Source: Fibrobacteraceae bacterium
Lineage (GTDB): Bacteria > Fibrobacterota > Fibrobacteria > Fibrobacterales > Fibrobacteraceae
Reading direction: 5' to 3'
DNA: 64,000 bases
NCBI GenBank assembly: GCA_017625775.1
Contig: JAGAKE010000003.1
Span: 82,575-146,574, forward strand
Positions 16,452 through 26,190 of this stretch are shown here, in pieces (within the stretch, counting starts at the first letter, position 1; every line of letters begins with the position of its first letter). Below the pieces are notes generated by a model. It was not told the DNA's origin. It did no database searches and saw only the letters and a program-made list of their open reading frames with translations. A program made the position numbers and the translations under genes.

Positions 16452-17828
16452 CTAGAAATTAGCGTATAAGAACGGAGAATTTCCTGTTTGACAAAATAGG
16501 AAAATACAGAACAAATGAATTCCGAAAAATAAATACTCTTTATCTTTTTGTTTTTCTTGCAAATATTCTTGAATGAATAGAATAAAAGTAAATATGAGAG
16601 TTGTTAAAAAATGAGCCATGCAAGTGTTTGCATAGGTAAAGGGTAATAACGAATTTGTGATAGCCGAAATATTTAATGAAAAATCAAAAATTAAATGAGA
16701 TAAGAATAAACGTAGAGCATCAAAGGATTCTATTCTAAACAATAACCACCCAAAAAGAACAATAGAGAATGTTAGAAAAAAAGCTAGAATTTTTGTAGGT
16801 AATGAGAATTTGGTAACATCCTGTTTGGGAGTTAGGCTATTAAAAACGCCATGCCAAAGCCCCCATAAAATAAAGTGTAGAGCGTTTCCGTGCCAAATAC
16901 CACATACGCCAAAAGTAGCGAGAGTATTAAAAAATTTCCTTGCGTTTCCTTTGCGGTTTCCTCCAAGTGGAATGTAGATGTAATCACGAAGCCAAGAAGA
17001 AAGAGAAATATGCCAACGTCTCCAGAAGTCTCTAATGTTTAAAGCAAAATAAGGTCTTTTGAAATTATCTTCACAAGAAATTCCAAACATTTTTGTGATT
17101 CCAACGGCAATTTCAGAATACCCTCCAAAATCGCAGTAGAGTTGTAGAGCAAATAAAAGAAGCGCTAGAAGAAGAGCAAAAGATGGGAATGATTCAGGAG
17201 AGTTAAAAATTGTGTTGGTATAGGCAGCGATTCTGTCGGCGATAACTATTTTTTTGAATAAGCCAGAAGTGAGTAAAAGAACGCCTTGCCTAAACAAATT
17301 GGGGTTATAAGAAAGGCCTTTTTTTATTGGTTCTGTGATGGTGTTAGAGCGTAAGATAGGTCCGCAAATAAGATGCGGAAAAAAGGATATGTAAGTGGCG
17401 TAAGAAACAAAGGATGTTTCAACCATGCGAGTTTTCTTAAATACATCAATGAGATAACTAATAGCCTTAAAACTATAGTAGGAAATGCCGAGAGGAAGAA
17501 GAACTGATTTGAAGGATAGTGAAAAGTGTTCTATAAAAAAGTCAAAGTATTTGAATCCTGCAAGAATTCCTAAAACAGACAAAATTCCGAGAACGAGATA
17601 GCATTTTGATTTTTTTGAATTGTCGGAATGTTTTGAAATTTCGTTTGCTATAAAAAAAGTAAGAAGAATTTCTAAAATCAGAAGTCCAAGAAATCGAAAA
17701 TCACATAATCCATAAAACAAAAAACTAGAAGTAAAAAGAATGAAAGGCCTAGCTTTTTTGGGAAAAAGATAAAAAATAGCTAAGGTAGTGAAACAGAAAA
17801 GTAGAAATAGATAAATGCTGAATTGCAT
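16452..17828 (-). CDS. MBOAT family O-acyltransferase (AlgI/DltB-like)
   Basis: A 458-residue polytopic protein with about ten membrane segments. The N-terminus is FLYLFPKKARPF-like, and the conserved middle part contains GGYSEIAVGITKMFG, NFKRPYFALNIRDFWRRWHI, SLSSWLRDYIYIPLGGNR and the catalytic-histidine region GIWHGNALHFILWGLWHG. These motifs identify the AlgI/DltB class. It is the first gene of a two-gene minus-strand operon with the SGNH protein and diverges from the lipoprotein gene at 17952. Expected function: transfer of acetyl groups to exported polysaccharide. Confidence 0.92.
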   Translation of the reverse strand: MQFSIYLFLLFCFTTLAIFYLFPKKARPFILFTSSFLFYGLCDFRFLGLLILEILLTFFIANEISKHSDNSKKSKCYLVLGILSVLGILAGFKYFDFFIEHFSLSFKSVLLPLGISYYSFKAISYLIDVFKKTRMVETSFVSYATYISFFPHLICGPILRSNTITEPIKKGLSYNPNLFRQGVLLLTSGLFKKIVIADRIAAYTNTIFNSPESFPSFALLLALLLFALQLYCDFGGYSEIAVGITKMFGISCEDNFKRPYFALNIRDFWRRWHISLSSWLRDYIYIPLGGNRKGNARKFFNTLATFGVCGIWHGNALHFILWGLWHGVFNSLTPKQDVTKFSLPTKILAFFLTFSIVLFGWLLFRIESFDALRLFLSHLIFDFSLNISAITNSLLPFTYANTCMAHFLTTLIFTFILFIQEYLQEKQKDKEYLFFGIHLFCIFLFCQTGNSPFLYANF

Positions 17829-17951
17829 AGGTGTTAAATATAAATATTACAAGCATTCACTTTTTGATTAGCTACAAAAATTATCTTAATTTTGCCTAAG
17901 AATCGGAATAAATTTTCATCAAATTATTTATGGTTTGCTATTTTGAGTGTT

Positions 17952-18563
17952 ATGAGTTTGTGGCGACGGTTACAGTTTTTTTTATTTGCCCTTTGTTTGA
18001 ATTTTTTTGGCTGTGGACTTCAAGAGGAAACCTCAGAAATTTGCTTTGTTGGCGATTCAATTACAAGACTTTGGGATTTAGAATATTATTTTGCGGGGCG
18101 AAATATTCATAAGCATGCTGTTAGCGGCGCAATTCTTGAAGATGTTGCCGAATGGAATACAAGTGATTGTAAAGATATTCCAACGGTAATGCTTATAGGA
18201 ACAAATAATTTGATTTTGGGTATGCAAGCGGATACCTTAACGGATGATTTTATTCTTGATTTTGTGAATAAATATGTGGAACAAGCGAAAAAATTTCAAG
18301 CGAGTTCTTTTTATGCCGTTTCAATTTTGCCTCGAAATTATTTGTGGAAACAGAATCCGAAAATTAATGAAGAAATTCGAAATTTAAATCAAGAAATAGA
18401 AAAATCATTAAAGCTATCGGGGATCGATTTTTATTTTGTGAATTTGTATTCGGAATTCCTATCTCGAGAAAATGAAATTGAGAAGGATTATTATTTCGAT
18501 GGTTTACATTTAACGCAAGAAGGTTATGAATTATTGAGTTGGTATGTGGAGGAGGCTTTATGA
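17952..18563 (+). CDS. SGNH/GDSL hydrolase, probable lipoprotein
   Basis: The frame begins with a possible TTG at 17892, but ATG 17952 gives a clean lipoprotein signal (MSLWRRLQFFLFALCLNFFGC, two basic residues, hydrophobic core, Cys). Block I reads CFVGDSITRLWD, block III GTNNLI, and the C-terminal DGLHLTQEGYELL carries Asp and His, completing the Ser-Asp-His set of GDSL esterases. Mature length about 180 residues is normal. It is probably an esterase acting on acylated surface sugar. It overlaps the next gene by four bases. The start remains somewhat uncertain because no strong RBS is visible. Confidence 0.8.
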   Translation: MSLWRRLQFFLFALCLNFFGCGLQEETSEICFVGDSITRLWDLEYYFAGRNIHKHAVSGAILEDVAEWNTSDCKDIPTVMLIGTNNLILGMQADTLTDDFILDFVNKYVEQAKKFQASSFYAVSILPRNYLWKQNPKINEEIRNLNQEIEKSLKLSGIDFYFVNLYSEFLSRENEIEKDYYFDGLHLTQEGYELLSWYVEEAL

Positions 18564-19168
18564 AAAAAAGTGCAGTATTTGTTCTGTTAATTTGCTTGCT
18601 TTTTGGAAATTCGTTTGCAAAAGAAAACGAACTTTTCGCTGGAATGCGAAATGAACGTTATGCGTTTATTGGAGTTCAAACAAAGTATCGATTTGGTTTG
18701 GCTTTAGAAAATTCTGTTTTAGTTCAAAAGCCTAAAATTCAGTATATTCGATTAGCTCCTTATTATTTTCAGGAAATTCCATTTGGATTAAACCTTTCGT
18801 ATGTGTTGTACGCAGGTATGCGATACGATTTTGATTTTTATGATTTAGGCACAAGAATTTCTGCGGACTATTCCATACTTTCTGAACGCTTGCAAGTGTT
18901 TGGAAGTTTTCAAGTCTTTTATGATAGTGATTTAGGAACAGAACTTACATATTTAGCAGGAACAAGGTTATTCTTTTTGCCAGAAGTAGGTTTTCAACTT
19001 TGTATTAAGAACATGCCAGAATACCGGAAACCAGAGCATCGCGTGGCTGGTGGATTGATTTTTAGAACAGATAGAATTTCTGTGTTGCCTGAAATTTCCA
19101 CTCCTCTTGATGGTCAAAGCCCATTGACGAGAGTTTCGGTTTCTTTCATATATCATTTACCGTTTTAA
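18560..19168 (+). CDS. Small secreted envelope protein, probable beta-barrel
   Basis: The start is ATG 18560, overlapping the SGNH stop (ATGA) with GGAGG at 18550-18554; the longer frame from 18539 is out of line with this RBS. A signal peptide (MKKSAVFVLLICLLFGNSFA) precedes about 182 residues with alternating hydrophobic and aromatic residues (YRFGLALENSVLVQKPKIQY, FNLSYVLYAGMRYDFDFYD-like) ending in an aromatic residue (YHLPF). This pattern fits a small outer-membrane barrel. I do not recognise a named family. Its coupling to the SGNH lipoprotein suggests a shared role at the outer membrane. Confidence 0.7.
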   Translation: MKKSAVFVLLICLLFGNSFAKENELFAGMRNERYAFIGVQTKYRFGLALENSVLVQKPKIQYIRLAPYYFQEIPFGLNLSYVLYAGMRYDFDFYDLGTRISADYSILSERLQVFGSFQVFYDSDLGTELTYLAGTRLFFLPEVGFQLCIKNMPEYRKPEHRVAGGLIFRTDRISVLPEISTPLDGQSPLTRVSVSFIYHLPF

Positions 19169-19172
19169 AAAT

Positions 19173-20408
19173 TTAGAAAGCATATTTTTTTTGGCGAAAA
19201 GCATCGTAAGCAAGAATTGCTGTGAAAACAATTTCTCCAGAAAGAACAAATAATGCTGTTTTTTCAACACCGTAAAAAGATATTCCTAAAAAGCAACCTA
19301 TAATATTGCAAAGGCCTCCAATTGCAATAAAACTAACGTATTTCCAAACTTGTTTTTCTTTAAGAAGCATAGATATATAAGGCAATCGTATGGCTTGGAA
19401 TAATAAAGAAAGCGTAAGAAGTTGAAGAATTTCGGAGGAGGCTTTTAGAACTTCATTTGTCCATGGAGCTGCAAAGAATAAAACTTGTAAAATTTTGTGG
19501 GGAAAAAGAAAAATGGGTAGGCAAACGACTGCAATAAATAGGAAAAAGAGGAGCTGGTCTTTTATATGAATTTTTCCGTCATTTGTTTTATGAAGAGATA
19601 TTAAAGAAGATGAAATGAAATGAACCATTAAGCCTGAGGCCAAGACGATTAATTTATTAGCAAAGTTATAAGCGCTTAAATAAGTAGAAGAAGCAAAGGA
19701 ATCTACAAAGTAAAGCCCTGCTGGTAAATAAGCGAAACTAGCTAAACTAGCAAGAGCATACGGAAGAGCGGCTTTGTACATTAATGCAATAAATTTGATT
19801 GTTCGTTTTGTGAATTTAAAAAGCTTTCGATTAAAAGCATTTGAAACTCCAAAAGCCCAAGCCGGTAATGCAGAAAGAACCATGCAAAGGGCAATACCCT
19901 CTATACTTTCGATTCGGAAATAAATCAAGGCAATAGCCATAATAGAGGCATAAGAACAAGTATGAAGAATTTTTGAAATCAGTAATTTTTTCCAAAAAGA
20001 GGCGCAAGTAAAATACCAATCAAAGAAAGCGTGCTGTAAAATCAATCCCGGAATCATAATCAGTTCTGCAAAAAAAATTGGATGGTGACGCCGCACTAAA
20101 AATACAAAGGCGAACATAAGTCCTGCCGTAAAAAGGGAAGCAAAGAAACGAAGTTGTAGAATATTTACGAAAAGTTTTCCCTGCGTGGCTCGTTTGGCAA
20201 AAAAAGCCAAAATTAAAGTAGCCATTCCAAAATCAGCAACGGCAGAAAAAATCATAAAATCGTTTTGCAGAATACCAAAAAATCCATAACGTTCATTTCC
20301 TAAGTTTTTGGCAATAAAATTCTGTACCAAAAAACCTGTTCCTTGAATTAACAGATTTACAAATGAAAGGAAAACGCCAATTTTGATATTTTTCAAAACG
20401 GAAAGCAT
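19173..20408 (-). CDS. Polysaccharide flippase (Wzx / MATE-like translocase)
   Basis: A 411-residue protein with about twelve hydrophobic segments. The N-terminus VLKNIKIGVFLSFVNLLIQG followed by the NLGNERYGFFGILQ segment is characteristic of polysaccharide_synt / Wzx proteins. It should flip lipid-linked oligosaccharide across the inner membrane before polymerisation. It converges with the 18560 gene, with only four bases between stops, and closes the polysaccharide locus. It is separated from Region 3 by a 230-base gap. Confidence 0.85.
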   Translation of the reverse strand: MLSVLKNIKIGVFLSFVNLLIQGTGFLVQNFIAKNLGNERYGFFGILQNDFMIFSAVADFGMATLILAFFAKRATQGKLFVNILQLRFFASLFTAGLMFAFVFLVRRHHPIFFAELIMIPGLILQHAFFDWYFTCASFWKKLLISKILHTCSYASIMAIALIYFRIESIEGIALCMVLSALPAWAFGVSNAFNRKLFKFTKRTIKFIALMYKAALPYALASLASFAYLPAGLYFVDSFASSTYLSAYNFANKLIVLASGLMVHFISSSLISLHKTNDGKIHIKDQLLFFLFIAVVCLPIFLFPHKILQVLFFAAPWTNEVLKASSEILQLLTLSLLFQAIRLPYISMLLKEKQVWKYVSFIAIGGLCNIIGCFLGISFYGVEKTALFVLSGEIVFTAILAYDAFRQKKYAF

Positions 20409-20604: not shown

Positions 20605-20626
20605 GGCCTCGGCTTGCGCCGAGGTC
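20605..20626 (-). terminator. Terminator of the VTC/HlyD/TolC operon
   Basis: CCTCGGC (20607-20613) pairs perfectly with GCCGAGG (20618-20624) around TTGC. On the minus strand the stem is followed by seven T residues (complement of 20598-20604). It lies 14 bases beyond the stop of the lamin-tail gene. The rest of 20409-20604 shows no gene. Confidence 0.8.
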
Positions 20627-20639
20627 TAAGTAATAGAAA

Positions 20640-22199
20640 TTATTTTTCGCCAGGAGTTGGTAAATTTGCCGTCCATGCTCCAGGATCACTTCCTGGCATA
20701 GAATAATCGGCTCGATGTAAACTCATTCCCATGCCATCGGCTTCTTCAGACCAAAGGCCATCATCAGAATAGAGCACCACATCTGACCAACGATAGCACC
20801 AATCAATCGCATTTGGCTTTGTTAAGTCTTCTACAAAAGCGTAAGGTTCCTTTACGAGAATTTGTTCGCCTCGGTTAGAAATTTTTCCTGAATATTTTTG
20901 AAGAACAACATCTTTTGAAAGTGTTGCTGCATAGGCCTCTAAATCTAAAATATTTGTGTCTGGAAGCATTAACAAAAGACCACCCGCAGGAATGCTAAGT
21001 GTTTCTAAATCAGAATCTCCTAGACCGCTAATTTCCCAAACGCCTGTTTTGCTTCCAATAGGTAATGAAAGTGTTACTGCGGAATCTGCAGTGTTTATGA
21101 TTTCAATAAATTCTAATTGGCCTTCTGGAGGATTGTAAAAAATTTCATTGACATAAAGTGGCCCAGATAATAATTCAGAAACGTTCTTCTTTTCAGGAGT
21201 AGCTTTTTTCAAACTTCCCTGCATAAGAGAGCCGTCAGAAAGTTCTAAAATGCCTGCTGTTCCCGAAGGAGTCGCTGGGTATTCTAGACCAGTTTCCGAA
21301 AGAGTCCAGGTACCATTTACATATTCGCGTAAATAGAGATTTTCGCCGCGTTTTAGCAAAAGAAGATCGTCTTCAAATTGTTCTTGTTTGAGAACAAAGT
21401 AACTTTCGGCAGGCACGATACTTCCTTCAGGAATGCTTAATGTATCGCCTCGGCGGCTAGCAATTAGAAGCCAACCAGAAATATCAACATCGTTTTTTCC
21501 TGAATTATAGAATTCAATCCAATCTTCAGAGCCATCTGTTGGGGCAACCTCGTTTATGCGAACAGTTAAAGGAGCATAAACTTCATCTTCGCTAGAGCCT
21601 GGATTGCCTCCATTCTTTTTGCTTGCAGCCCAGTTATTTGGCATAGAAGCATTTCCGCCTAAGAATACAAGTGAAGAACCGGCTCCATCAGCAAGACTTG
21701 GCCAAGGGGGAGAGTTATCAAAGGAACAATCAATGTCGCCAGCTCCGCGTAATTTTACAGAAATGACATCGCCACCATTGGATAATTTTTCGACTTCGCC
21801 TTTATTGTCATTATTCCAAGGTCCAAATAAACGACCATTAAAATCAGGGTATGCCTTTTTGAATGCATCAAGGTCTCCAGTTACAACAAGGCGTTCACCT
21901 TTTTTCATGGGTTCTTCTGGGAAGTTGTATTCTACAGCACCATCTAAACGAAGTTCAGAAAGAGCCATGTTTTCAAGATCCTCGCCAGATTCAATATAAA
22001 TTTCAACCCATTCTACAAGCGAATCTGGGTGATGGTACATGATTTCAGAACATGCCATTTGAGTGAGTGGTTTTGAATCGCTAGGAGAATTTCCATCGCC
22101 GTTTCCTGAGGAACTAGAAGATGAATCGTCGCTACAAGCAATCAATGCAGAGGATGCTAAACATAGAAGCATCGAGTATTTTAAAGGATTTAGATTCAT
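20640..22199 (-). CDS. Lamin-tail domain lipoprotein
   Basis: A 519-residue lipoprotein: signal peptide with lipobox LIAC at residues 19-22, then a serine-rich linker (DDSSSSSSGNGDGNSPSDS), then at least three lamin-tail-like units. Their starts read CSEIMYHHPDSLVEWVEIY, VRINEVAPTDGSEDWIEFYN and YVNEIFYNPPEGQLEFIEI, and the second is followed by DVDISGWLL, the usual LTD strand. Bacterial LTD proteins are surface proteins of mostly unknown role. It is the last gene of the five-gene operon starting at 26190, with a 43-base gap after the VTC gene. Such domains often occur with CotH kinases, but no CotH motif is seen here. Confidence 0.85.
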   Translation of the reverse strand: MNLNPLKYSMLLCLASSALIACSDDSSSSSSGNGDGNSPSDSKPLTQMACSEIMYHHPDSLVEWVEIYIESGEDLENMALSELRLDGAVEYNFPEEPMKKGERLVVTGDLDAFKKAYPDFNGRLFGPWNNDNKGEVEKLSNGGDVISVKLRGAGDIDCSFDNSPPWPSLADGAGSSLVFLGGNASMPNNWAASKKNGGNPGSSEDEVYAPLTVRINEVAPTDGSEDWIEFYNSGKNDVDISGWLLIASRRGDTLSIPEGSIVPAESYFVLKQEQFEDDLLLLKRGENLYLREYVNGTWTLSETGLEYPATPSGTAGILELSDGSLMQGSLKKATPEKKNVSELLSGPLYVNEIFYNPPEGQLEFIEIINTADSAVTLSLPIGSKTGVWEISGLGDSDLETLSIPAGGLLLMLPDTNILDLEAYAATLSKDVVLQKYSGKISNRGEQILVKEPYAFVEDLTKPNAIDWCYRWSDVVLYSDDGLWSEEADGMGMSLHRADYSMPGSDPGAWTANLPTPGEK

Positions 22200-22242
22200 A
22201 AGACTCCTTCTGTTTATATAGGGAATATACTTTTTTCTAGTT

Positions 22243-23067
22243 CTAATCAGAAAAATTTCCCGCTAAGTGAGTGTAATTTGGAGTACGAAAACCCCTAGGG
22301 TTTTCATAAACTCTTTGCCATTCTGCGGCGGCATTCCCAAATTTTGAAAATCCGGCTAATTTTAAATTGAGCATGTGAATTAAATCCATCATCCAAAATG
22401 GAACTTGAGAACAAGGGCATTTTAATTCGAGAACAGCGTCACAACCAGGCGCAAAAAAACGAGGTAATCCAGTAGAATGCATGTAACGAGGATCTACAGT
22501 ATAATCAAAACCATTTTCTTCGCGGAATCGCATACAAGTATCAATGGTTACTCTTGAGTATTCTTCTGTGGTGCTGAACCAAGCTCGCCTTTTATATTGA
22601 GTTAATAATCTTGGATTAGCGTTAAACGTTTTTACTTTATATAAGTATTCTTCTAAATATTTTCGGTCGCGTTCTGTTTTTACAGGCCATTCTTCAGGGG
22701 AATGATTAAATACAAATGAAGGATTTTCTCCTTTAATAGTAGCTCTGCTTTTAAAACAAACATTTCGGATTTTTCTTTTTACTTCAAAGTGGAAAGTTCC
22801 TTTTGGGTCGGGATGTTCTCCATAGGTTCTGATTCGCATATTAAATCTATCAAGCAACCTTGATTTTTTCCATCTTAAAAAAGTCCAATTAGGAGAATCA
22901 AGATAAAGATTGGTTATCCAATAAAAACCACCTGGCGTGATTTTTGAATAATAATCTTCTTCGCAATATGGTGAAATAATTTGACCAATAAGATCAGCCC
23001 ACTCCACAGGAATGTGGTATTTTAATTCAAAACGTTCTAGTAGGCTAAATCCACGGGCTCCCGCCAT
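22243..23067 (-). CDS. VTC-domain protein (polyphosphate-polymerase-like)
   Basis: About 274 residues forming one VTC domain, the tunnel fold of the yeast Vtc4 polyphosphate polymerase. Visible strand motifs in order: ERFELKYHIP, NLYLDSPNW, FNMRIRTYGEH, FHFEVKRKIR, LLTQYKRRAWF, RVTIDTCMRF and AVLELKCPC, carrying the Glu/Lys/Arg residues that line the tunnel and bind triphosphate and metal. The start chosen is ATG 23067, which overlaps the upstream stop (TAATG) and has GGGAG just upstream; ATG 23082 would add five residues. There are no SPX or membrane segments, so it is a soluble cytoplasmic enzyme candidate. Confidence 0.88.
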   Translation of the reverse strand: MAGARGFSLLERFELKYHIPVEWADLIGQIISPYCEEDYYSKITPGGFYWITNLYLDSPNWTFLRWKKSRLLDRFNMRIRTYGEHPDPKGTFHFEVKRKIRNVCFKSRATIKGENPSFVFNHSPEEWPVKTERDRKYLEEYLYKVKTFNANPRLLTQYKRRAWFSTTEEYSRVTIDTCMRFREENGFDYTVDPRYMHSTGLPRFFAPGCDAVLELKCPCSQVPFWMMDLIHMLNLKLAGFSKFGNAAAEWQRVYENPRGFRTPNYTHLAGNFSD

Positions 23068-24389
23068 TAACGATTCTCCCATTCAAAATGTTTGGAAATA
23101 TCTTTTGCGGCTAGCTTCCCAGCGTAATCCAAGATAATTAAATAGCGAGAATAAATTTCGTATTCTAATTCAAGCGCTTTCATTTCACTTTCAAGAGACA
23201 CATCTTTAGCTCGCAATAATAATAATGGGTCTGAACCAGAACGAGCAGCAAACTCTTCAAATACATCGCCAGCATCAACACGTTCTACAAAGTTTTTTTG
23301 AACGTTACGTTGAGCGATTAAAGCAAGAGTTTCTTCACGAATACGTGCTACTTTTTGAGTGATGTCTCGTTTCTCATCTAAATAATCACTTTCGGCTTCA
23401 AGGACGTCTAATTGCCTTTTTGTTTCATCTCCACCATCAGTGCCAAAGAATGGTAAACGTAGTGAAAGGGTGGCGTAAAATTTATCTCGCGTGCGTCGGT
23501 CGTCATCTTTTTTAGTGATTTTCCATTCTTTATCTGCGACAGCAACTTTATTTTCGTAATCATAGGAATATGTTCCTGTTTTTACAGAATCGTATTCATA
23601 AGAGCCGAAGGAATGTTTGTACCCAATTCCAATGGAAGAAATGATTTTGTTCGCTCCTGTTTTTTCTTGTTCGTATTGTTTTGATTCTACATTCCATTTT
23701 TGTTTTGCCATAGCGACTGCTGGGTAAGTATCATCAACAATGAGATTCCCTTTTAATATAGATTCAATTTCTGAAATGCTTGGAAGAAATCCTGAATCTA
23801 ATGCAACAGAATCAAACTCCACCCAAGAACGAAATTTCATTTCAATATCGCGCAAAGCATTACTGTCTGCGATGAGTTTTGCTTGCAATTCAGATTCTCG
23901 TTCAAGAGCGCTAATTAAGTTGTCTGGACTAAATGTTTCGCTTCCACTTTTTAAATGCAAAACTTCAAGTCTATCTTTATTTACGGTTTCCATATCCCAA
24001 TGCAATTGTTGTTTGCGCTTTTGGGTTAAATAACGGAGCGCCCTTTCGTATCTTTCATAAACAAAGTAAGATCTATAAAAGTCGGCACGACTTTGTTGGT
24101 AAGAACTTTGAGCTTCCCAATAAGATTTTGTGCTGTTGCCTTCTCCAAATACTTTTGGTTTAAAACGGAGTTCAAAATCGTGTTCCATAAAGCCAAAGCC
24201 ATCAAGTTTATATTGGAGTTCAAGGCTATTCCATAATTTTACAGAAGTGCCTGTTTGAATGGCGTTCTTTTTCTTTTCTCCTGCTAAAACGGCAGGCTCT
24301 GTTTCAACAGAACTTATTAACCGCTCAAAAGTTAATGGCTCGGCAGCAATCGGTAAAGCGAAAAATAATCCTAGAAGTAGTTGTTTCAT
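23067..24389 (-). CDS. TolC-like outer-membrane efflux protein
   Basis: A 440-residue protein with an N-terminal signal peptide (MKQLLLGLFFALPIAAEP) and long helical, repeat-like halves rich in Ala, Glu, Lys and Arg, as in TolC-family channels. A beta-type segment ISSIGIGYKHSFGSYEY and DKFYATLSLRLPFFG precede the second helical hairpin. Family resemblance is moderate. Neighbours support it: the HlyD-like adaptor lies 21 bases upstream and the VTC gene overlaps by one base. It would form the outer-membrane exit of a tripartite assembly. Confidence 0.8.
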   Translation of the reverse strand: MKQLLLGLFFALPIAAEPLTFERLISSVETEPAVLAGEKKKNAIQTGTSVKLWNSLELQYKLDGFGFMEHDFELRFKPKVFGEGNSTKSYWEAQSSYQQSRADFYRSYFVYERYERALRYLTQKRKQQLHWDMETVNKDRLEVLHLKSGSETFSPDNLISALERESELQAKLIADSNALRDIEMKFRSWVEFDSVALDSGFLPSISEIESILKGNLIVDDTYPAVAMAKQKWNVESKQYEQEKTGANKIISSIGIGYKHSFGSYEYDSVKTGTYSYDYENKVAVADKEWKITKKDDDRRTRDKFYATLSLRLPFFGTDGGDETKRQLDVLEAESDYLDEKRDITQKVARIREETLALIAQRNVQKNFVERVDAGDVFEEFAARSGSDPLLLLRAKDVSLESEMKALELEYEIYSRYLIILDYAGKLAAKDISKHFEWENR

Positions 24390-24410
24390 TTGTTCCTCAT
24401 CTAGTGAATT

Positions 24411-25505
24411 TTAAGGTGCTGTTACCGAAAGAGAGTCATTATTTGCCGATGTATTTAAAAGGTTTTTCCAATCAGGAAGTTCTGTGATGGAAACTTTTTC
24501 TCCAAGAAGAAATCCACTATTTTCTGGAATAGCTACATTCACTTCTCTTCCATACATTGGAAAATCAGGAGACTTTAAAAGGCGTAGAGGGAATGGAACA
24601 ATTTGGCTACTCATTCCAACGATTTTACCGCGTACTTTAGATTGAGTTCCAAGAGTTGATACTTCTACTTCATCACCGACTTCAATTTTACTATGTAGAT
24701 TTTCGTGAAGATAGCCACGAACAAGAGAAGGCTCTTTTCTAGTGAGAGTCATTAAAGGATTAAAGGAAGAAACTTTTTCTCCGTCTCGAGCGAGAATGGA
24801 GCCAACGACCCATTCGCCTTTAGCCAAAATCGTTTGTTCTTTCATTTCTTGTTGCAAACGTTCTAATTCTTTTTGCAAAAGCTTTGCTTCCGAAGCGTTA
24901 GATTCTGCTTGTTTTCCTTTGCTTCCTCGTAACAAGCGAATTTGAGTAGCTGCATTGGCTTCTAAAACAGAAAGTTCCTTTTTCATACTTTGAATTCGTG
25001 CTGCCATAGCATCATTTTCGCTAGATGGTCCTGTTCCAGAAAGAGATTTTAAACGAGCGGCTATCGCGAGATTTTGCTTGTATTCTGATTCTAATTTTTG
25101 AATTTCAAACTTGAGTGTATTTCGACGCGTATCTAAATCAGCTTTGATTTCTGCCACTTTTTGATCTACAGAAGCCATTGAAACATTTCCTCTGCCTTCA
25201 AGTGCGTCTAATTCCCTTTTAAGTTCGTTCATACGAAGCGCTAAATCTGGACGACTAAGTTCTATTAGGGTATCACCGTCTTTTACTTCTTCACCGACTT
25301 CTACATGCAATTTGATGACTTCAACCGCAGAAGGAACACTTACTGTAATCGCTGTAGCTTCAGCAATTCCGCTAAAGACTACATCACTTCCTTTGGTGAC
25401 ATAAGAAACAGAAATAATCGCTGCAAGAGAAAGAGTCCATGCAATGCCCATTTTTTTGGAGACGATTGTTTTTCTATCAAAGAAGGCGTGGATTTTTTCA
25501 AACAT
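24411..25505 (-). CDS. HlyD-like membrane-fusion (periplasmic adaptor) protein
   Basis: A 364-residue protein with one N-terminal membrane anchor (residues 22-41), then a biotinyl-lipoyl-like half motif (IKLHVEVGEEVKDGDTLIEL), a long coiled coil at about 75-230 (VDQKVAEIKADLDTRRNTLK and KLLQKELERLQQEMKEQTI), and the second lipoyl half plus beta barrel (KGEWVVGSILARDGEKVSSF). This is the normal order of an MFP. No RND, ABC or MFS pump gene is adjacent: the only membrane neighbour is the DUF4956 protein, one base upstream. Confidence 0.88.
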   Translation of the reverse strand: MFEKIHAFFDRKTIVSKKMGIAWTLSLAAIISVSYVTKGSDVVFSGIAEATAITVSVPSAVEVIKLHVEVGEEVKDGDTLIELSRPDLALRMNELKRELDALEGRGNVSMASVDQKVAEIKADLDTRRNTLKFEIQKLESEYKQNLAIAARLKSLSGTGPSSENDAMAARIQSMKKELSVLEANAATQIRLLRGSKGKQAESNASEAKLLQKELERLQQEMKEQTILAKGEWVVGSILARDGEKVSSFNPLMTLTRKEPSLVRGYLHENLHSKIEVGDEVEVSTLGTQSKVRGKIVGMSSQIVPFPLRLLKSPDFPMYGREVNVAIPENSGFLLGEKVSITELPDWKNLLNTSANNDSLSVTAP

Positions 25506-25506
25506 A

Positions 25507-26190
25507 TTACATCTCCGTTACAGCATCTTGCATCATGAAATTTACATCGGAAACGCCTTCTATAGAAGATAAAGCGGAAAGAACTTCTGCCGCGGGATGC
25601 TTTCTTGATAAGCGGACTTGGTAAGCTACATCCATTCTTTCTCCTCCATCAACTTCTCGCATAGTAATTAGAACAAACGTTCGAATGTTTGCTTTCATCA
25701 CTTTTTCTACAGCAAGCCTAGCCTCGCTTTCGTTGGGCATGGCAAATCGTAACATGCCGTCATAAAAATGCCTTGTGCCAAGCCCTGTTCCGCTTAATAT
25801 AAAGGCGACAATACAAAAAGCGAGAGTTCCACCTGCAGCAACGCCCCAAGCAAAAACACCGCAGCCAATTCCTGCGCCGAGGGCTGCAAAAAGGAACATG
25901 ATGTCTCTAGGGTCTTTAAAACTAGTTCGGAAGCGGACAATAGAAAGAGCTCCAAGCATTCCGAGACCGCGCCCAACGTTGTCGCCAATAGCTTGCATTA
26001 CGGTAGCAGAAACTACAGTAGAGAGTACGAGCGCCTGGACGAAATTTCTAGAATAAGATAATCCTTTAAATGTCTTTTCGTATGTCCAACCAATAAGAGA
26101 CGAAAGAACAAACGCTAAAAGAAGTGTGTAAACCATGGTCACCAAAGTAGGATGAGCCGTGCTAGATTGGACTGCCATGAGGTCAAGCAT
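25507..26190 (-). CDS. DUF4956 membrane protein (polyphosphate-associated, MgtC-like region)
   Basis: A 227-residue protein with four hydrophobic segments (about 17-34, 48-66, 95-115 and 117-136) and a cytoplasmic ferredoxin-like C-terminal half (150-227). The motif GRGLGMLGALSIVRFRTSFKDPRDIMFLFAALGAGIG (in two parts) is characteristic of DUF4956 proteins. These genes are often found beside VTC-domain genes. It is the first gene of the operon; GGAG is placed five bases before ATG 26190. Its biochemical role is unknown. It is the only candidate for an inner-membrane partner of the HlyD/TolC pair here. Confidence 0.85.
   Translation of the reverse strand: MLDLMAVQSSTAHPTLVTMVYTLLLAFVLSSLIGWTYEKTFKGLSYSRNFVQALVLSTVVSATVMQAIGDNVGRGLGMLGALSIVRFRTSFKDPRDIMFLFAALGAGIGCGVFAWGVAAGGTLAFCIVAFILSGTGLGTRHFYDGMLRFAMPNESEARLAVEKVMKANIRTFVLITMREVDGGERMDVAYQVRLSRKHPAAEVLSALSSIEGVSDVNFMMQDAVTEM

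Follow-up and report, generated by a model that had tools for sequence, protein, structure and literature searches.

Introduction

HlyD-type adaptors and TolC-type outer-membrane channels form conduits that are known for export, and the pairs known so far need a pump of the ATP-binding cassette (ABC), resistance-nodulation-division (RND) or major facilitator superfamily (MFS) type. Here we describe an operon in which such a pair stands between the genes of a DUF4956 membrane protein and a VTC-domain protein, followed by a lamin-tail lipoprotein gene. It lies in a stretch of 64,000 nucleotides from a Fibrobacteraceae bacterium (assembly GCA_017625775.1, contig JAGAKE010000003.1, positions 82,575 to 146,574), called the window below. 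Tentatively, and at a little under an even chance for the mechanism as a whole, we read the five genes as one envelope-spanning machine that would make polyphosphate inside the cell and export it without a pump. We know of no dedicated bacterial polyphosphate exporter.

In the yeast VTC complex the tunnel leads into a membrane channel, and a model of coupled synthesis and translocation has been proposed (PMC9911596). Changes at Vtc4 residues R264, R266 and E426 inactivate the yeast enzyme (PMC9911596, PMC8749416), and a review charts VTC domains across eukaryotes (PMC10657179). The accessory genes of Gram-positive Pel clusters include those for CotH, a polyphosphate polymerase and DUF4956 (PMC7112168). 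Streptococcus intermedius mutants in SIR_1592 (an ACT-domain protein with four membrane segments) and SIR_1594 (CotH) had altered Pel levels and aggregated less, and the Streptococcus membrane protein was called MgtC-like (PMC12345266). We take SIR_1592 to be the DUF4956 gene. According to the analyses in the accessible text of that paper, the three genes were not found in that order outside the Pel locus; VTC-DUF4956 pairs with CotH-like genes were found here in several phyla. A reference title in PMC12345266 reports an extracellular action of bacterial polyphosphate. A search of the openly accessible literature, by titles and abstract openings among the matches listed and with most subscription journals and all preprints outside its scope, found no description of VTC or DUF4956 together with HlyD and TolC. 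A study of Clostridium perfringens names both CotH and a VTC domain.

Results

A five-gene operon conserved in Fibrobacterota

The five genes lie on the minus strand in the order DUF4956, HlyD, TolC, VTC and lamin-tail lipoprotein, with spacings of 1, 21, -1 and 43 bases. The DUF4956 membrane protein, the proposed inner-membrane component, has 227 amino acids (aa) and is encoded at 25507..26190 (PF16316, 50.7 bits, over cut-off). The HlyD-type periplasmic adaptor follows (364 aa, 24411..25505); it matches HlyD_3 at 31.4 bits, over cut-off, while a second adaptor model, HlyD_D23, stayed below its own. The TolC-type outer-membrane channel protein (440 aa, 23067..24389) occupies the same place in relatives, and its assignment is weak yet over the cut-off (OEP, 26.0 bits against 22). 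The VTC-domain protein (274 aa, 22243..23067; PF09359, 110.9 bits, cut-off 23) is a predicted cytoplasmic polyphosphate polymerase; an in-frame ATG at 23082 would extend it to 279 aa. The last gene encodes a lamin-tail-domain protein (519 aa, 20640..22199; PF00932, LTD, 77.7 bits in two stretches), the N-terminus of which reads by eye as a lipoprotein signal (LIAC) and which would be located at the surface. Just past the last stop codon a terminator-like hairpin with a T run is found on the same strand (20607..20624, read from 20624 to 20607; 7 pairs, 6 of them G-C, then CCTTTTTTTA). Repeats within the operon were limited to short pairs. In number, strand, coordinates and spacings (-1 to 43 bases) the genes are as an earlier sequence-only reading of the window had them, and its family names hold for all five, each over its Pfam cut-off. 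The single terminator that it placed at the operon end corresponds to this hairpin, the richest in G-C pairs, though the hairpin scan as a whole showed no excess over shuffled sequence (6 versus 4.9).

The arrangement is conserved across much of Fibrobacterota and is therefore not a product of chance. Among 150 genomes of this phylum, VTC was present in 121, DUF4956 in 119 and the HlyD family of the window in 93. In 90 of these 93 genomes VTC was located 1.8-3.4 kb from HlyD, and in the remaining three the two genes were on different contigs of draft genomes. Forty loci, chosen by hand for spread over genera and both classes, were fetched from 125 listed VTC places. The order DUF4956-adaptor-TolC was found in 22 of them, twice with an extra gene between adaptor and TolC; VTC came next in 21 of the 22 sets and a lamin-tail gene was also present in 19. 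Genes were called with a simple open reading frame (ORF) picker, which overlooked the HlyD of L046 and the VTC of L050 and L195; the genome search for HlyD makes L046 a 23rd set, and the VTC of L050 was detected by genome profile search. The overlap of the TolC and VTC genes seen in the window recurs in 18 of 21 listed loci (ORF picks). Among the 120 homologues of the window HlyD listed out of 163, the organism names given are those of Fibrobacterota, if Hallerella and Chitinispirillaceae are, as we presume, Fibrobacterota. The neighbourhood search that the sequence-only reading had proposed thus finds DUF4956-HlyD-TolC-VTC across much of this phylum, and related sets in others.

Most of the remaining Fibrobacterota loci form a second class, in which VTC-DUF4956 has Cthe_2159- or CotH-type neighbours and neither adaptor nor TolC (L039, L040, L043, L052, L054, L055, L061, L065 and L070). 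For L055 these neighbours were identified as a Cthe_2159 protein, a Porin_O_P-like protein and CotH.

The VTC protein keeps the catalytic residues of the yeast polymerase

A profile built from 28 VTC relatives matched yeast Vtc4 (3g3q) at 1e-16. The equivalents of Vtc4 R264, R266 and E426 in the window protein are R78, R80 and E214. They are kept in all 69 adaptor-linked VTC proteins and in 133 of 134 other VTC proteins, so that the loss of tunnel catalytic residues across homologues, which the sequence-only reading had named as evidence against itself, was not found. Most of ten further aligned tunnel positions are equally constant; the exceptions are S241, replaced in 8/69 adaptor-linked proteins, and R108, replaced in 70/134 others. 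From these residues the window protein is predicted to be a polyphosphate polymerase.

The tunnel fold also hosts hydrolases. The VTC protein might be no polymerase but an enzyme of this fold that handles polyphosphate or triphosphate, and the set might take up or sense phosphate polymers at the cell surface. The replaced tunnel serine and the ACT-like end of DUF4956 would fit this reading, as ACT-like domains often bind ligands. The known use of adaptor/TolC conduits is export, which speaks against it. So does the conservation of the three residues by which Vtc4 was inactivated (PMC8749416, PMC9911596), and we consider import or sensing very unlikely.

In most of these genomes VTC is the only polyphosphate synthase that was recognised. 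PPK1 was found in 50/150 and PPK2 in 21/150 Fibrobacterota genomes. Because one or the other occurs in only 12 of the 93 genomes with the set, and neither in 81, VTC is usually the sole recognised synthase found there, and polyphosphate metabolism in these 81 genomes may rest on it. Among 51 hand-picked genomes of the window family with a completeness of about 90% or more, PPK1 or PPK2 was found in eight. The window genome, which is 71% complete, has one VTC domain, one DUF4956 and three CotH matches; neither PPK1 nor PPK2 was found in it at this completeness.

The adaptor and its relatives

The model of the window HlyD (predicted local distance difference test, pLDDT, 82.9; predicted template modelling score, pTM, 0.53) shows an N-terminal helix, a two-helix hairpin (86-153 and 163-222; 68 and 60 residues) and beta parts. 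Its closest Foldseek matches were EmrA (2.9e-16) and MacA (5e-14). It reached no NCBIfam cut-off, the best being MdtN with 50.5 bits versus 376. A second adaptor family was confirmed as such: its profile finds MacA (9e-11), ZneB, EmrA and AcrA and aligns with the window HlyD family (98.8%), and 8/19 of its members match HlyD_3.

In four loci (L058, L059, L066 and L067) HlyD is enlarged to ~654 aa, and the extra C-terminal part in L058 matches the beta-propeller families DUF3616 and SdiA-regulated. In L064 (5712-6668) and L069 (5971-6891) a protein that by eye is similarly beta-propeller-like has its own gene, placed between those of HlyD and TolC; that of L064 is phytase-like, below cut-off. 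Perhaps the beta-propeller-like part is an extra periplasmic piece of the machine.

DUF4956 as the probable inner-membrane partner

An AlphaFold2 model of the DUF4956 protein (pLDDT 77.7, pTM 0.58) has five helices (16-41, 47-68, 72-87, 94-111 and 115-135), followed by a ferredoxin/ACT-like domain at 139-226. In Foldseek searches this domain resembled ACT domains and, weakly, the MgtC C-domain (2lqj, E 0.034, rank 33). Two arginines, R86 and R88, form an R-x-R pair that is invariant in 235/235 proteins from all groups. The pair would lie where the membrane domain opens to the cytoplasm, and there it may handle phosphate. A sequence search with the DUF4956 alignment found no relatives in the PDB; for the single protein the sole match was AmoD, which was rejected as chance-like.

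DUF4956 is a good candidate for the inner-membrane component, as it is paired with adaptors in several phyla and in varied gene orders, even without VTC. We consider it probably the inner-membrane partner of the HlyD adaptor, which it would dock. Its role as the inner-membrane part of a trans-envelope complex, as put forward in the sequence-only reading, is supported by its association in several phyla with the adaptor, and in part with TolC.

Related sets in other phyla

Among the best 80 of 577 loci of a genome scan for DUF4956, an adaptor was present in 22 of 78 scored, with L094 in addition. All adaptor-bearing loci of the scan belong to lineages that we take, from record titles, to be diderm. 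The diderm-looking deltaproteobacterial, planctomycete and poribacterial loci of the scan had no adaptor. The order of the window, DUF4956-HlyD-TolC-VTC, recurs in the Bacteroidota genome of L241 and in Delongbacteria (L118), where a gene that is CotH-like by profile replaces that of the lipoprotein. The order adaptor-VTC-DUF4956 occurs in Bacteroidota, Ignavibacteria, KSB1, Zixibacteria and Neomarinimicrobiota, and L076 has adaptor-VTC-DUF4956-TolC. DUF4956-HlyD-TolC was found in Algoriphagus (L096) and Cyclobacterium (L126, with TolC in two pieces). A Hymenobacter plasmid carries adaptor-DUF4956-TolC and no VTC within 7 kb.

Draws of genomes from two phyla were then compared, the Bacteroidota sets being located through DUF4956 searches. 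DUF4956 was present in 74/296 Bacteroidota genomes (81 places, 80 fetched, 78 scored) and in 46/299 Bacillota genomes (40 of 53 places fetched), which together with the Fibrobacterota draw makes 239 genomes with DUF4956. In 50/78 Bacteroidota loci DUF4956 had an adaptor gene no more than 4 genes away on its own strand, and 2/40 Bacillota loci had one within 4 genes (p 1.7e-10). Both Bacillota adaptors adjoin an ABC ATPase, apart from the operon, while VTC was present in 40/40 Bacillota loci. Within Bacteroidota, the adaptor accompanied 50/59 DUF4956 proteins with a weak Pfam score, the window type, versus 0/19 with a strong score (p 1e-11). These p values are rough because loci of one phylum are not independent. 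On these draws the adaptor is limited, in our samples, to lineages with an expected outer membrane, and not to all of them. TolC was found within 4 genes in 20/78 Bacteroidota loci. Six loci (L057, L060, L094, L130, L207 and L217) in which no DUF4956 was scored were left out of the counts, although L094, L207 and L217 hold adaptor-VTC pairs; L146 had an adaptor in one scoring and not in two others.

In a DUF4956 tree of 201 rows, the label for adaptor arrangement needs 7 changes. Its starred branches force at least 2 changes for each of two adaptor arrangements, with gain and loss indistinguishable.

Two further arrangements were noticed in Bacteroidota. A short DUF4956 type (185-186 aa; L185, L188, L190, L191, L193 and L196) has neither adaptor nor VTC alongside, and genes for proteins of 631-640 aa and 236-241 aa lie upstream in five of the six loci. 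A bare DUF4956-HlyD-TolC run was seen in 16 loci (L212, L213, L216, L221, L223, L224, L228, L229, L231-L234, L236-L238 and L243), mostly flanked, by gene length, by a DUF6580 gene (~182 aa) and a short-chain dehydrogenase gene (~240 aa). The TolC-like protein of L212, the sole bare-run locus checked with Pfam, had no Pfam match.

CotH and lamin-tail proteins

The lamin-tail protein is not universal in the sets. CotH was not among the ten window proteins scanned with Pfam, so that the window operon has none. A Pfam CotH match lies directly upstream of DUF4956 in five genomes (G025, G045, G053, G075 and G081) and one gene further in G021, and from these positions CotH is part of the operon in part of Fibrobacterota. 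VTC and CotH occurred together in 119 of the 150 Fibrobacterota genomes; VTC alone was found in 2, CotH alone in 6 and neither in 23. CotH was present in 92/93 genomes with the window HlyD. These genome counts are Pfam matches, whereas CotH labels in locus scorings derive from profiles built by iteration, which may also have picked up surface proteins of other kinds.

Genes around the operon

Upstream of the operon a divergent rubrerythrin gene is followed by a Na+/H+ antiporter gene. Just downstream, at 16452-20408, an MBOAT acyltransferase, a GDSL hydrolase, a protein of 209 aa without a family name and a Polysacc_synt flippase are encoded, the last at 19173-20408 past the terminator on the same strand. 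Together these four genes may form a small group for the modification of surface glycans. Judged by gene length, it is present in L031 and not in L032, both of the same genus as the window.

No pump gene adjoins the operon in the window, as the sequence-only reading had noted, and Pfam found no ABC, MFS or RND pump among the five operon genes. Two neighbours were considered as the missing pump and rejected. The flippase gene comes after the terminator, and a gene of matching length was seen in L031 but in neither L032 nor other genera; the antiporter gene is separated from the operon by the divergent gene.

Evidence against a polyphosphate-exporting machine, and alternative readings

Several observations weigh against one machine that makes and exports polyphosphate. 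The first concerns the pump. In the largest genus of the draw (g2), all 11 loci examined (L033 and L335-L344) continue past the operon, on the same strand, with another TolC, another adaptor (332 aa) and a pair of ABC-2 permeases (1526-6701 in L033, same place in the others). In these loci no ABC ATPase came to light on this flank of the operon. HlyD and TolC might work with a pump of the ABC, RND or MFS type whose gene lies elsewhere, DUF4956 and VTC being a separate phosphate-homeostasis pair that shares the operon. The pump need of known HlyD/TolC pairs speaks for this, as does an RND-size protein in L084, which has its own TolC and adaptor on the opposite strand. The simpler reading of the g2 exporter, however, is a separate system, since it comes with an adaptor and a TolC of its own, though the two may share a role in g2. 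Its four genes were absent from the 64-kb window and from 22 other class-1 Fibrobacterota loci (tblastn, 1e-8), and among 96 adaptor-linked loci of all phyla relatives of its permeases were found in L033 only. Motif and hydropathy scans for pumps otherwise gave scattered, non-recurring matches, a weak negative because these crude scans, one of them limited to 4 genes from DUF4956, missed the L033 permeases. A co-inherited pump gene, which by the sequence-only reading would have told against it, does not recur across the sets as scanned, but an ABC-2 exporter does follow the operon in genus g2. Finally, several phyla have the adaptor next to DUF4956 or to a VTC-DUF4956 pair, with two adaptor families and no fewer than two gene orders represented. 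In our judgement a pump encoded elsewhere is unlikely.

The second concerns the cargo. In 20 of the 50 adaptor-linked Bacteroidota loci no VTC was scored; 19 of these come from genomes without VTC anywhere, and one has a VTC in the locus. DUF4956-adaptor-TolC without VTC was found in 18/80 Bacteroidota loci. Because 19 adaptor-linked sets come from VTC-free genomes, the unit of adaptor and DUF4956 is independent of VTC. Such sets are strong evidence for DUF4956 as the inner-membrane partner of the adaptor, and they weaken VTC as the constant source of cargo unless PPK1 replaces it. DUF4956, adaptor and TolC could instead export another cargo, for example a polysaccharide or protein of the surface, which the polyphosphate made by VTC would then serve as regulator, counter-ion or phosphate source. 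The downstream MBOAT, GDSL and flippase genes of the window would suit this reading, as would the Pel-cluster accessory genes CotH, polymerase and DUF4956 (PMC7112168) and the mutant effects in Streptococcus intermedius (PMC12345266). The downstream genes are, however, shared by only one of the two other loci of the genus, and VTC is inside the operon in 21/22 fetched Fibrobacterota sets. PPK1 is present in 20/20 genomes of the loci scored without VTC and so in all that are VTC-free, a count confined to these genomes. We regard another cargo as a serious, if doubtful, possibility.

Further points concern the parts of the proposed machine. The window VTC protein carries the VTC domain only and has, by Pfam, neither the SPX nor the membrane domain of the yeast subunit. 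The membrane part of DUF4956 matched no channel (Foldseek at E 0.001; VIA-align), although it was barely covered by the fold search, and Pfam gave DUF4956 only. TolC is missing from 28/29 contiguous Bacteroidota runs holding adaptor and VTC, and therefore these sets would need a TolC encoded elsewhere. VTC-DUF4956 also occurs without an adaptor in diderms, in the second Fibrobacterota class and in Bacteroidota, where 17/19 strong-type loci have VTC and 0/19 an adaptor. Activity, localisation and complex formation of the proposed machine are all predicted from the genes.

Discussion

From the five genes we infer a complex, and from the complex a cargo, which would be VTC-made polyphosphate. In the machine proposed here, the VTC protein would make polyphosphate in the cytoplasm and DUF4956, standing in the usual place of the pump, would take the chain across the inner membrane. 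The HlyD adaptor and then the TolC channel would carry it outside. The push on the chain would come from synthesis itself, as in the model put forward for yeast VTC. A separate pump would be unnecessary, since the yeast tunnel leads into a membrane channel and coupling has been proposed there. At the surface the lamin-tail protein, or CotH in relatives, would hold or use the product. A more far-reaching version is possible, though we hold it with more doubt than confidence: a pump-less class of adaptor/TolC systems, in which the growing chain itself is driven through a DUF4956 channel, the adaptor and TolC to the cell surface. Outside the cell, where ATP is lacking, it would be anchored by lamin-tail or CotH proteins or serve them as a phosphate donor.

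If true, polymer synthesis alone would drive export across two membranes, a route of a new kind, and DUF4956 would be a new inner-membrane partner for the adaptor/TolC family. DUF4956 would gain a role, and CotH kinases would be linked to an extracellular phosphate source. The question is accessible to single gene removals.

Four known systems invite comparison. EmrAB-TolC, MacAB-TolC and HlyBD-TolC share the HlyD-type adaptor with a long hairpin and the TolC-type channel, whereas the operon described here has no ABC, MFS or RND pump and DUF4956 takes the pump position. MgtC-type membrane proteins likewise have membrane helices followed by an ACT/ferredoxin-like domain, but the C-domain match is weak, the membrane part is unmatched and the genomic context differs. 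The Gram-positive Pel cassette CotH-polyphosphate polymerase-DUF4956 resembles the operon in having VTC beside DUF4956, and CotH is near in many relatives; no adaptor or TolC is described there in the accessible text (PMC7112168, PMC12345266), and the window operon is without CotH, though its genome has CotH matches. The yeast VTC complex (Vtc1/3/4), a vacuolar synthase-translocase, shares the catalytic domain with the R264, R266 and E426 equivalents and the idea that synthesis is coupled to membrane passage (PMC9911596). Here, by contrast, the enzyme has no SPX or membrane domain, DUF4956 replaces the Vtc membrane domains, and there are two membranes to cross, hence the adaptor and TolC.

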